From contig JAJDOD010000188.1 of assembly GCA_022340315.1 (NCBI GenBank), forward strand, positions 1 through 48,571: a stretch of DNA of 48,571 nt, in the 5' to 3' direction. The number at the start of each line of letters is the position of its first letter. Within the stretch, counting starts at the first letter, position 1. Positions 26,168 through 28,654 of the stretch are shown here, piece after piece. The stretch comes from Silicimonas sp. Lineage in GTDB: Bacteria > Pseudomonadota > Alphaproteobacteria > Rhodobacterales > Rhodobacteraceae. The notes beneath the pieces were generated by a model. The model was not told the origin of the DNA. It did no database searches and saw nothing but the letters and a program-made list of their open reading frames with translations. The translations under genes and the position numbers were made by a program.

Positions 26168-26668
26168 TCAGCCCGCCTCCCCGTCGTCGAGAAGCGTCCA
26201 GATGTCGGTGCCCGCGGGCATCGCATCGAGCAATTCATCGACGGAGCTTTCAGAGGCCTCGAAGCTTTCGGGTTTCCATATCTGGAACGTGTCGCCCATC
26301 GCGATGAAATAGGCCTCGCCACTGATGCCCAGCTTGTCGCGCAGCTTCTGCGGCAGCACGATCCGGCCGGTGTCATCGACGCTCGCGGGCAGCGACTGAC
26401 CGTTGAACAGTCGCTCAAGGGCGCGCCGCTGGCGCGAGCCCCGCGGCATCGACGCGATGCGCTCGTCGACATCGTTCGCGGCGTCGATCGTGAAGCATTC
26501 AAGGAAATCCCGGCGCTCGTCGCCGTAGACGATGATGAATTCCGGCAGCTTGCCTTCGGACCAGTTCGGATCGCCATCGCGGAGAACGACGCGATAATTG
26601 GCCGGGATGGACACCCGACCCTTGGCATCCACCTTCTGGATGCCCTCGCCTCTGAACCTCCGAACCAC
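26168..26668 (-). CDS. mraZ: MraZ, division-cluster transcriptional regulator
   Basis: MraZ is an AbrB-like DNA-binding protein that represses its own cluster in E. coli by binding TGGG repeats. The product is 166 residues from a GTG start (VRRFRGEGIQKVDAKGRVSI). Two AbrB-like halves are seen: VDAKGRVSIPANYR and VDDTGRIVLPQKLR, with RxRR-type basic residues between. The C-terminus FEASESSVDELLDAMPAGTD is an acidic extension. It is the first gene of the mraZ-rsmH-ftsL-ftsI-murEF-mraY-murD set. A strong hairpin with T-run lies only about 30 bases before the start, so expression depends on readthrough. Confidence 0.95.
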   Translation of the reverse strand: MVRRFRGEGIQKVDAKGRVSIPANYRVVLRDGDPNWSEGKLPEFIIVYGDERRDFLECFTIDAANDVDERIASMPRGSRQRRALERLFNGQSLPASVDDTGRIVLPQKLRDKLGISGEAYFIAMGDTFQIWKPESFEASESSVDELLDAMPAGTDIWTLLDDGEAG

Positions 26669-26696
26669 TGTCCCGCGGCTCCCTTGTCCTGCCCCC

Positions 26697-26743
26697 CGAA
26701 AATGAAAACGGCGGATCGGACTGCTGCCAGTGTCCGATCCGCC
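26697..26743 (-). terminator. Intrinsic terminator/attenuator in the mraZ leader
   Basis: On the minus strand, GGCGGATCGGAC (26743-26732) pairs perfectly with GTCCGATCCGCC (26721-26710) across a 10-base loop. It is followed by GTTTTCATTTTC, a T-rich run ending near 26697. Just upstream is a small hairpin, TCCCG-GAAA-CGGGA (26751-26764), with a GNRA-type loop. The mraZ start codon is at 26668, so this terminator sits inside the leader and would stop most transcripts before the division genes. Confidence 0.88.
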
Positions 26744-26903
26744 GCCCTCGTCCCGTTTCCGGGATGTCCAGCTGCGCGCGCCACCTGGGGGGATGTCTGC
26801 TCGCCCGCGCGCCGGATCTCTGGAATGAAGCGGAAGCCTGTATGAAACCTGCTCTTATTTGGTTCTAGGGTCGTTGAGCGCCCTGAATGCTGTCCCGCGT
26901 CAT
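26697..26903 (-). ncRNA. UpsM-like leader sRNA of the division cluster (5' end approximate)
   Basis: In Rhodobacter sphaeroides the dcw cluster is preceded by a long leader whose terminated form is the sRNA UpsM of about 200 nt. Here the same arrangement is visible: a long non-coding leader, a strong intrinsic terminator shortly before mraZ, and a gene-free stretch of the right size. The 3' end is set by the T-run. The 5' end is placed only by analogy in length, because I cannot identify a confident -10. A TGGGA-N5-TGGGA pair lies about 25 bases upstream of that point. Confidence 0.6.
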
Positions 26904-26924
26904 TCGGTGATTTGGAAAATTGCA

Positions 26925-26939
26925 TGGGAATTCATGGGA
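26925..26939 (+). promoter_or_regulatory. Candidate MraZ box (TGGGA-N5-TGGGA)
   Basis: TGGGA at 26925-26929 and 26935-26939 are spaced exactly ten bases apart, the spacing of MraZ-binding repeats. They lie on the strand opposite to mraZ, about 260 bases before its start, close to where the leader transcript should begin. Only two units are present instead of the usual three or more. Confidence 0.4.
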
Positions 26940-26997
26940 AGCAACAGAAAAATGCCTGCGAGCGCTCTTGGAATCGCCCAATAGATCACTTCAATCC

Positions 26998-27020
26998 CGA
27001 TATATGGACTCTATATATCG
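26998..27020. repeat. AT-rich palindrome centred on a GANTC site
   Basis: CGATATAT-GGACTCT-ATATATCG is a perfect 8-bp inverted repeat around a 7-base centre containing GACTC, a CcrM (GANTC) methylation site. It sits in the most AT-rich part of the 561-base gap (26669-27229) between mraZ and the histidine kinase gene. The function is unknown. Confidence 0.7.
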
Positions 27021-27229: not shown

Positions 27230-28654
27230 TCAGGCCGCCCGCCGTTGGTCTGTGATCACCCTGTCTGGCGGGATCGAGAGCGTGAAGGTGCTCCCCTGTC
27301 CCGGCACCGACCGGACATCGAGAGCACCGCCGAGGTTGCGCGCCACGCGACGACTGACCGACAGGCCCAGCCCGGTCCCCGGTATCTGGCTCTGGCGATG
27401 CAGGCGCTTGAACATACCGAAGATGCGCTCCTGGTGGCCCGCCGCGATTCCCATGCCGTTATCCGCAACGTGGATACAGCAGATGCCCGAGCGCGCCTCG
27501 ATCTCCGCGCTGATCCGGATCAGGGGGGCGACGTTCTCGCTGCGATATTTCAGGGCATTGCCCACAAGGTTCTGAAACAGCACCCGAAGCTGCGCCCGGT
27601 TGCCAAGAATGACAGGCAGCGGCGCGACCTCCAGGGTTGCATCCGCAGCTTCGATATCGGCCGCGAGGTCTTCAAGAACACTCCTCACTTCGCCATCCAG
27701 ATCAACCGATTCTTCCTGTTCCTCGCTGGTCTCGATCATCGCCGCGTAGCGCAGCAGTTCCGCGATCTGGACGTTCACGCGGTCAATGGTGGAAAGCGAT
27801 TTCTCGATCAGTTCGCGCTGATCATTGGACAGACGGTGACCGTCCTGTCCGGCGCGGATTTCTTCCAGCAGCAGGTGAACGGTATTCATCGGCGATTTCA
27901 TGTCGTGGGACATGGCATAGGCAAACTCGCGCAGCTCTCCGTTCACTTCCAACTCGCGCTCCAGCGCCCCGCTGGCCAGGGCATAGGCATCGCGGCTGTT
28001 CCTGTTCTCCTTCAATGCGATCGCCTGAACGGCGATGATGCCCGCAAGCGTTCCGATGAACACTGCCATGCCCGACCAGCGCAGGAACTCCAGCCGCGCC
28101 ATCACGTCGGTCGCAAGCTGCACACGGAACACCGCCAATTCACGAAGCGCCGGGGCATCGTAGTATCGCACGATCTCGTCAATCTCGCGCGCGGTCGCCC
28201 CCTTTCGGTGCAAATCCTCGACCTGGTCGATACGCTCGTAATACGCATGCACGGCTTCCCGCGTCTTCGTCAGGCTGGCATCCACGCCGCCATCTTCGAG
28301 ATTTGCCAGAACATTGTCGATCAGCATCAGCGCGCGGGCGACGTTGTCGCGCGCCGCTTCGGCAAGGTGCTGCTCCTTCGGACGCAGGACATAGTTCTTG
28401 AAGTTATGGATCAGGCCACCGTATCCCAGCGCCTCCTCGATCTCGCTCAACTGAAGCGGCATGCGCGCCGCTGTATGCGAAAGCCGATCCTCGGAAAACT
28501 GCACCGTGGCAAAAAGCGTGGCGCCAAGCACGATGGCAATGGCGGTGAACCGCACATTGGCCTGCCTTAGCAGAAAAAAGCCCACGACCGCCGCCCAAAG
28601 GCGATGAAATTCCCTACGAATGAACACCCGTTCAATCCCCGATACCACCGGCAC
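27230..28654 (-). CDS. Membrane sensor histidine kinase (orphan)
   Basis: The product is 474 residues. It has a helix at about 36-54 (FTAIAIVLGATLFATVQF), an extracytoplasmic helical sensor region of about 140 residues, and a second helix at about 193-213 (WSGMAVFIGTLAGIIAVQAI). A HisKA domain follows with the phospho-His in FAYAMSHDMKSPMNTVHLLL and then an HATPase: N-box LFQNLVGNALKYRSE, G1 HVADNGMGIA, F-box IFGMFKRL and G2 GTGLGLSVSRRV. No response regulator gene is adjacent, so it is an orphan; its signal is unknown. The start is GTG, and later GTG codons are possible. It follows phr by 43 bases. Confidence 0.92.
   Translation of the reverse strand: MPVVSGIERVFIRREFHRLWAAVVGFFLLRQANVRFTAIAIVLGATLFATVQFSEDRLSHTAARMPLQLSEIEEALGYGGLIHNFKNYVLRPKEQHLAEAARDNVARALMLIDNVLANLEDGGVDASLTKTREAVHAYYERIDQVEDLHRKGATAREIDEIVRYYDAPALRELAVFRVQLATDVMARLEFLRWSGMAVFIGTLAGIIAVQAIALKENRNSRDAYALASGALERELEVNGELREFAYAMSHDMKSPMNTVHLLLEEIRAGQDGHRLSNDQRELIEKSLSTIDRVNVQIAELLRYAAMIETSEEQEESVDLDGEVRSVLEDLAADIEAADATLEVAPLPVILGNRAQLRVLFQNLVGNALKYRSENVAPLIRISAEIEARSGICCIHVADNGMGIAAGHQERIFGMFKRLHRQSQIPGTGLGLSVSRRVARNLGGALDVRSVPGQGSTFTLSIPPDRVITDQRRAA

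Follow-up and report, generated by a model that had tools for sequence, protein, structure and literature searches.

The region upstream of mraZ in Silicimonas sp. is best explained overall as a UpsM-type leader of the dcw operon with StsR as its partner RNA, a reading to which we assign a probability of about 0.87. The anatomy of the leader, its homology to UpsM, the covariation of its terminator, the presence of a StsR homologue and the conservation of both complementary blocks are drawn from sequence; termination and read-through, the dependence on RNase E and Hfq and the action of StsR are taken from papers on Rhodobacter sphaeroides.

Anatomy of the mraZ leader

The whole stretch of DNA that was analysed (48,571 bases, hereafter the window) carries mraZ on its minus strand with a GTG start at 26668 and a match to the Pfam MraZ domain. 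It is followed on its 3′ side by rsmH/mraW, a short open reading frame, ftsI, murE, murF and mraY, as assigned by Pfam domain and gene order; Pfam gave no match for the short reading frame at the ftsL position. The next gene on the same strand 5′ of the leader encodes a histidine kinase and ends near 27230. The interval from this gene to the leader promoter contains, on the plus strand (26998-27020), an A+T-rich inverted repeat of 10 bp with TTTT after it. The features of the leader are as follows.

26916-26944, minus strand: predicted leader promoter (−35 TTGCTT at 26944-26939, 17-bp spacer, −10 AATTTT at 26921-26916), from homology and the spacing of the family repeat
26923-26939, minus strand: MraZ-box-like direct repeat TCCCATGAATTCCCATG in the promoter spacer, from family scoring
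26836-26852, minus strand: putative StsR site 1, GCAGGTTTCATACAGGC, 17 nt perfectly antisense to the StsR of the same genome, from complementarity
26819-26835, minus strand: U/C-rich linker, predicted RNase E cleavage region, from alignment with the R. sphaeroides site 694,720 (PMC6238624, excerpt)
26767-26817, minus strand: R2, a conserved stem with a large near-invariant loop (GCGAGCAGACATCCCCCCAGGTG), from the alignment
26797-26803, minus strand: putative StsR site 2, CGAGCAG in the R2 loop, complement of StsR nucleotides 2-8 (CUGCUCG), from RNAduplex
26787-26792, minus strand: C-tract within the R2 loop, near-invariant across the alignment of 109 rows
26752-26763, minus strand: R3 hairpin CCCG-GAAA-CGGG, with a GNRA tetraloop
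26709-26744, minus strand: R4 terminator stem of 13 bp with a 10-nt loop and the motif TGGCAGC (26729-26723), from covariation and loop conservation
26699-26708, minus strand: interrupted T-tract TTTTCATTTT, where the short RNA is predicted to end, from sequence
26692-26697, minus strand: G-run directly after the T-tract, present in read-through RNA only, from family frequency
26168-26668, minus strand: mraZ (Pfam MraZ) with the RBS-like AAGGGAG at 26685-26679

The original prediction had described a perfect 12-bp stem with a T-rich run 30 bases before mraZ and a GNRA-loop hairpin just upstream of it, and all these elements were recovered. The R4 stem consists of GGCGGATCGGAC-ACTGGCAGCA-GTCCGATCCGCC at 26743-26710, and a further C-G pair brings it to 13 bp; the T-tract ends 30 nt and the stem 40 nt before the start codon, and the GNRA hairpin is R3 (26763-26752). 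Among perfect stems of at least 12 bp with a loop of 3-12 nt, R4 is the sole case in the window, and 20 dinucleotide shuffles of the window contained one such stem in total. Stem and tail together fold with an energy of −25.7 kcal/mol (z −6.2), and the whole 214-nt leader with −93.4 (z −3.6). In an alignment of 109 leaders, 11 of the 12 modelled terminator pairs have changes on both sides. Stem, covariation and tail are those of a Rho-independent terminator lying inside the mraZ leader, from which features termination is predicted. A generic terminator scan did not list the R4 hairpin among its elements; the 10-nt loop exceeds the limit of 8 set for loops in that scan. The first 12 nt past the stem contain a mean of 4.65 T in 127 family leaders, and the interrupted T-tract of the window would fit a leaky terminator.

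The terminator stem covaries, yet the motif TGGCAGC in its loop is near-invariant. The occurrence of this motif in 109/109 aligned rows is partly a matter of selection, because rows without GGCAGC had been removed before alignment; a less strict search found a match at 139/154 loci, in some cases at the wrong place. Judged by eye, StsR offers just a 5-bp complement to this motif. R3 takes the form of a GNRA tetraloop on a 4-bp stem in 46/109 rows and a longer-stem form, CCCGC..GCGGG, in 41/109. Downstream of the stem, GGGG lies within 25 nt in 74/127 leaders, compared with 30.4 ± 4.7 in shuffles that kept base composition only. One can speculate that the G-run at 26692-26697 might form base pairs with the R2-loop C-tract, which would concern read-through RNA only. 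An antiterminator between R2 and R4 was also considered, as GATCCG in R2 resembles the 3′ arm of the terminator; it was rejected on reading the alignment, in which R2 is fixed and the terminator arms covary.

The leader shows one conserved promoter-like element, and a generic sigma-70 scan returned nothing on the leader (minus) strand. The transcription start was placed by hand near 26905-26910 from an alignment with the R. sphaeroides locus, where subtraction of the published 268-nt leader from the mraZ position 694,904 gives a start at 694,636, equivalent to about 26905-26910 here. From the predicted start to the T-tract the RNA would thus measure about 210 nt. The repeat TCCCA-N5-TCCCA at 26939-26923 (TGGGA-N5-TGGGA on the opposite strand) fills most of the 17-bp spacer. 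Its best score reaches at least 12 of 14 in 111/151 family leaders compared with 0.17% of dinucleotide-preserving shuffles, and TTG stands exactly 5 nt ahead of the repeat in 113 of the 141 family leaders with a repeat score of at least 10. The strict form of the repeat was found at just 42/154 family loci and in 11/13 class outgroups, there mostly closer to mraZ.

We take the unit of the MraZ box to be of the TGGGA type with 10-bp spacing. By this consensus, the window carries short direct repeats at the spacing of MraZ boxes in the promoter region of mraZ. As in the MraZ boxes of the dcw promoter, direct repeats with 10-bp spacing stand upstream of mraZ; unlike the known boxes, the repeat lies in the spacer between −35 and −10, about 255-271 nt upstream of mraZ and before an attenuator. 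MraZ is described, in an excerpt of PMC8475190 referring to Eraso 2014, as a repressor that binds boxes upstream of dcw in E. coli, and autoregulation of MraZ through the spacer repeat may be expected here. The term "MraZ box" does not occur in the excerpted text of Weber et al. (PMC5089854). On the leader strand, GCA-N9-TGC (26941-26955), a motif with six fixed bases only, overlaps the −35 element; this pattern has been proposed as a putative NtrX site (PMC7240162). By eye it is absent from the same place in R. sphaeroides. An NtrX ChIP peak assigned to mraZ in R. sphaeroides (694,110-695,200) covers the leader region.

UpsM homology and conservation in Rhodobacteraceae

In R. sphaeroides, UpsM (formerly RSs0682) measures 206 nt, lies in a mraZ leader of 268 nt and is divided into regions R1-R4 (Weber et al. 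2016, PMC5089854, excerpt); about one read-through per 100 transcripts is estimated in the same source. UpsM is abundant and bound by Hfq, RNase E generates a fragment of about 130 nt from it, and transcription of mraZ has the leader promoter as its only source. The RNase E site was placed at genome position 694,720 in the excerpt of PMC6238624. The proposal that the window holds a UpsM-like leader gained support from position, length, terminator and the R2-R3-R4 layout, and the suggested comparison with UpsM, once carried out, showed the window leader to be alignable with R. sphaeroides from the promoter to the T-tract.

Among our genomes, the locus of G079 is probably that of R. sphaeroides 2.4.1, because a covariance model built here matches it at 694,726, next to the published site 694,720, and the NtrX ChIP peak agrees. 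G079 was outside the training set of the model and still scored 122.4 bits; the window leader scored 148.5 bits but was part of the training set. Over R2-R4, the window leader is homologous to the UpsM of R. sphaeroides in both sequence and structure. Over its 206 nt, R. sphaeroides UpsM itself folds no better than shuffled sequences (z −0.95). Both loci share the place before mraZ, the StsR site, the RNase E linker, R2, R3, the terminator and a GTG-started mraZ. They differ in R1, in the tail (TTTTCATTTT in the window, CTTTCGTTT in R. sphaeroides), in the fit of site 1 to StsR, which is perfect here and has one mismatch in R. sphaeroides, and in the distance from stem to mraZ, which is 40 nt here and 67 nt at the R. 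sphaeroides locus (the excerpted paper, PMC5089854, places the terminator 84 nt upstream). The Listeria riboswitch-derived sRNAs SreA and SreB (via PMC5089854, excerpt) likewise yield a trans-acting RNA by termination in a leader; unlike in these, a ligand-binding domain is not supported for the window leader.

For a family-wide view, mraZ upstream regions were collected from family genomes. Loci L092, L101 and L168 were dropped for a start position outside the accepted range, and short leaders were removed before counting (less than 300 nt upstream for the StsR-block counts, less than 400 for the repeat count and less than 250 for another leader count). The R2 motif was present at 134/154 family loci and in 0/13 class outgroups, and just 16/181 family leaders were without an R2-R4 core recognisable by motif or model. 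For the alignment, rows without GGCAGC and near-duplicates were removed and L023, L073, L077, L082 and L133 were also left out; in the resulting 109 leaders, 98.1% of cells are paired and 21 of 26 pairs have two-sided changes, a value reached by 0/500 shuffles. The order was sampled with 196 genomes, every one labelled as the same family; under stricter filters, the covariance model matched 194 of them, once per genome except for two matches in G334. Under the same filters it matched 4 of 289 genomes drawn from the class, all four again of the same family; the output does not list 265 of the class genomes that had no match.

Scanning named genomes for 22 nt of R2 yielded at least 117 loci. Among the matches listed, 114 carry the R2 motif 50-300 nt upstream of mraZ on the same strand and the other three lie on pieces without a mraZ match. 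The record titles among these matches are, to our reading, Rhodobacteraceae genera or bare labels such as "Pseudomonadota bacterium", with the exception of L198. This record, named Maritalea mobilis DP3N28-3, encodes a MraZ similar to that of the window (E 4.7e-35, in a small set) and has the R2 motif upstream of it, and Maritalea belongs to another order, Hyphomicrobiales, according to NCBI. Leaders similar to UpsM were reported for other Rhodobacteraceae, and the arrangement was stated to be special to the family (PMC5089854, excerpt); apart from L198, our results with named records agree with this statement. Rfam, searched at gathering and relaxed thresholds, gave no credible match for the window (best E 0.91), and Rfam 15 at the gathering score gave no family match for the window or for the 3-kb StsR locus L302.

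StsR and its complementarity to the leader

StsR (formerly RSs0827) is a 72-nt stationary-phase sRNA of R. sphaeroides under control of RpoHI/RpoHII, which pairs with UpsM and promotes its cleavage by RNase E (PMC8307010 and PMC11354728, excerpts); its binding lowers dcw mRNA (PMC11354728, excerpt). The sequences of StsR and UpsM were sought in the text of the papers and not found there. A search of nine family genomes for 14 bases antisense to GCAGGTTTCATACAGGC gave an exact match in every genome, within another conserved unit that resembles StsR, and most of the genomes also matched at the leader; the leader of G129 has one mismatch and that of G310 has strongly diverged. One further exact match of these 14 bases was observed elsewhere in the genome of G129. 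The StsR-like unit measures about 75 nt, has a terminator and is preceded in most members by the promoter CTTG...CGTATAA. We take this motif to be of the heat-shock-sigma type, as expected for control by RpoHI/RpoHII. Judged from its sequence, the unit is a predicted sRNA of about 72 nt with a heat-shock-sigma-type promoter and an intrinsic terminator.

Because of its length, promoter type and pairing, the unit found in the same genome as the window is identified as a probable StsR homologue; it lies outside the window, at C210:8305-8386 by model match. In the excised locus L302 (G000:C210) it occupies 1482-1559, and a long minus-strand open reading frame resembling a membrane transporter (1556-2770) converges on it. 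The C210 locus and the StsR locus of G079 share the first 40 nt, a terminator giving about 72-76 nt and the CTTG...CGTATAA promoter; the sequence of the terminator stem differs. A 36-nt StsR core was found with at most three mismatches in 190/198 family genomes (189/197 genera), and the reversed pattern occurred in none of the rows; among the rows listed, only G185, G021, G034 and G087 differ from the core. A StsR model recovered diverged copies in three of the other eight family genomes, and the five still without a match are 71-92% complete. With E 0.001 as the cut-off, the same model had no match in any of 24 class outgroups. The 24 rows of the StsR alignment were chosen by an exact 32-nt core, so that their identity is partly due to selection. 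Two near-complete genomes, G129 (L385) and G310 (L386), have no match to the UpsM model at E 0.001 and have kept StsR.

Both blocks of complementarity to StsR are conserved. CATACAGGC occurs in 150/181 family leaders compared with 0/13 outgroups, and CGAGCAG in 145/181 compared with 5.9 in shuffles keeping base composition only. Both blocks in order were found in 127/181 family leaders and in 0/13 outgroups, with a mean of 0.0 in 50 rounds of such shuffles; 26 leaders have the StsR block ATACAGGC without an exact CGAGCAG. In R2, 8 of 10 stem pairs have changed on both sides. When seven genomes were searched for the antisense of the R2 loop with at most three mismatches over 22 nt, only the leader itself was found.

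RNAduplex gave −46.2 kcal/mol for StsR with its own leader, and 0/300 leaders shuffled by base composition only were as low; such energies overstate the gain because RNAduplex ignores folding inside each RNA. Three colinear helices were calculated, namely StsR 20-35 with site 1, StsR 12-18 with AGAGATC at the 5′ edge of R2 and StsR 2-8 with CGAGCAG, the middle one of which comes from the RNAduplex calculation alone. The U/C-rich linker is the stretch left out between the helices at site 1 and AGAGATC. At the R. sphaeroides locus, the cut at 694,720 likewise falls between site 1 (from 694,689) and AGATCC (694,726) with site 2 (694,742). This predicted pairing layout would fit the published statement that a previously double-stranded region becomes accessible to RNase E once StsR has bound.

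Co-variation between StsR and the leader is thin and hints only weakly at intermolecular compensation. In a comparison of six genomes, the variant StsR of G130 prefers its own leader; both RNAs have changed and fit each other best. The StsRs of G033 and G087 do not prefer their own leaders, and 22 and 2 of 300 composition-shuffled leaders, respectively, bind as well. Uncompensated changes were found in G185 (StsR nucleotide 8, without a matching change in the leader) and in G164 (site 2, without a match in StsR). In G033 (L396, L009), StsR starts with AATGCTCGAAA; its perfect complement of 10 nt, TTTCGAGCAT, is present at a new position in the diverged leader and is possibly a relocated second site.

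Proposed mechanism and alternative explanations

By analogy, we infer that the events described for R. sphaeroides would also take place in Silicimonas sp., including the bridging geometry of StsR. The leader RNA would begin at a single promoter that is overlapped by the MraZ-box-like repeat. The majority of transcripts would end at the covarying terminator before mraZ and yield an sRNA of about 210 nt, and a minority would continue into mraZ and the division genes; the expectation that most transcripts stop is based on the R. sphaeroides estimate of about one read-through per 100. Under stress or in stationary phase, StsR, made from a heat-shock-sigma-like promoter elsewhere in the genome, would pair with the leader at two places: 26852-26836 would be bound by the hairpin loop and 3′ arm of StsR, and 26803-26797 in the R2 loop by the 5′ end of StsR. 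This pairing would open R2 and loop out the U/C-rich linker between both sites, where RNase E would cut, leaving less sRNA and less dcw mRNA. The idea that the leader serves as a checkpoint linking division-gene expression to an sRNA, put forward in the original prediction, would fit the lowering of dcw mRNA by StsR reported for R. sphaeroides.

A ligand-binding riboswitch, in which R2 and R3 form an aptamer for a cell-wall metabolite and control the terminator, was raised as an idea by Weber et al. (PMC5089854, excerpt). It could draw on the R2-loop C-tract and the terminator loop, which are near-invariant, have no known partner and are both left unexplained by StsR. The 5′ half of the R2 loop, in contrast, can be accounted for by StsR complementarity, no Rfam family matches, and the constrained folding of the family consensus published in the same excerpted source showed no conserved R2-R4 switch or antiterminator. 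Moreover, the leader of G129 has retained site 1 but lacks a recognisable R2, so that R2 is not indispensable; before mraZ this leader has another strong hairpin, after which comes GTTTC. We consider the riboswitch very improbable. Slightly less probable still is a plain attenuator, whose short RNA would be a by-product without action in trans and whose resemblance to StsR would be incidental. The terminator and its leaky tail alone could indeed set basal dcw expression, and StsR is the only trans target considered; yet termination requires neither near-invariant loops nor a StsR site, the 14-base antisense stretch lies inside a StsR-like unit in 9/9 genomes tested, and pairing of StsR with UpsM has been reported in R. 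sphaeroides (excerpts cited above).

That the stem is an end-of-gene terminator serving the histidine-kinase gene, with mraZ having a promoter of its own further downstream, can be given hardly any credence. The kinase gene does lie on the same strand, but more than 480 nt separate its end from the stem, the promoter with the MraZ-box-like repeat lies in between, the 40 nt from stem to start codon leave little room for a promoter, and the layout is family-wide. A UpsM-type leader with StsR as partner thus remains the explanation that we favour.

UpsM and its control by StsR are already published for R. sphaeroides. Our search found no paper naming both StsR and Rhodobacteraceae, and it did not cover the key paper, Grutzner 2021; accordingly, neither the family-wide conservation nor the second StsR site is put forward here as unpublished. 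A further-reaching reading, to which we give even odds, is that StsR and the dcw leader form a locked RNA pair throughout the family, with the division genes under nested control. If so, StsR would hold the leader by two or perhaps three colinear contacts with the RNase E linker looped out, and the invariance of the R2 loop would in part reflect a docking site. The 5′ half of StsR would be near-constant in 189/197 genera since it is constrained by the leader and by other targets, and MraZ would control initiation, the terminator elongation and StsR decay.

The C-tract and TGGCAGC are two near-invariant loop motifs in need of a partner, and the many natural variants within the family could serve to test the pairing of StsR with the leader. 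The pairing model shows concretely how one sRNA could destroy another sRNA along with a division mRNA, and a cell-division control circuit of one laboratory species is now predicted by sequence for most of the family.
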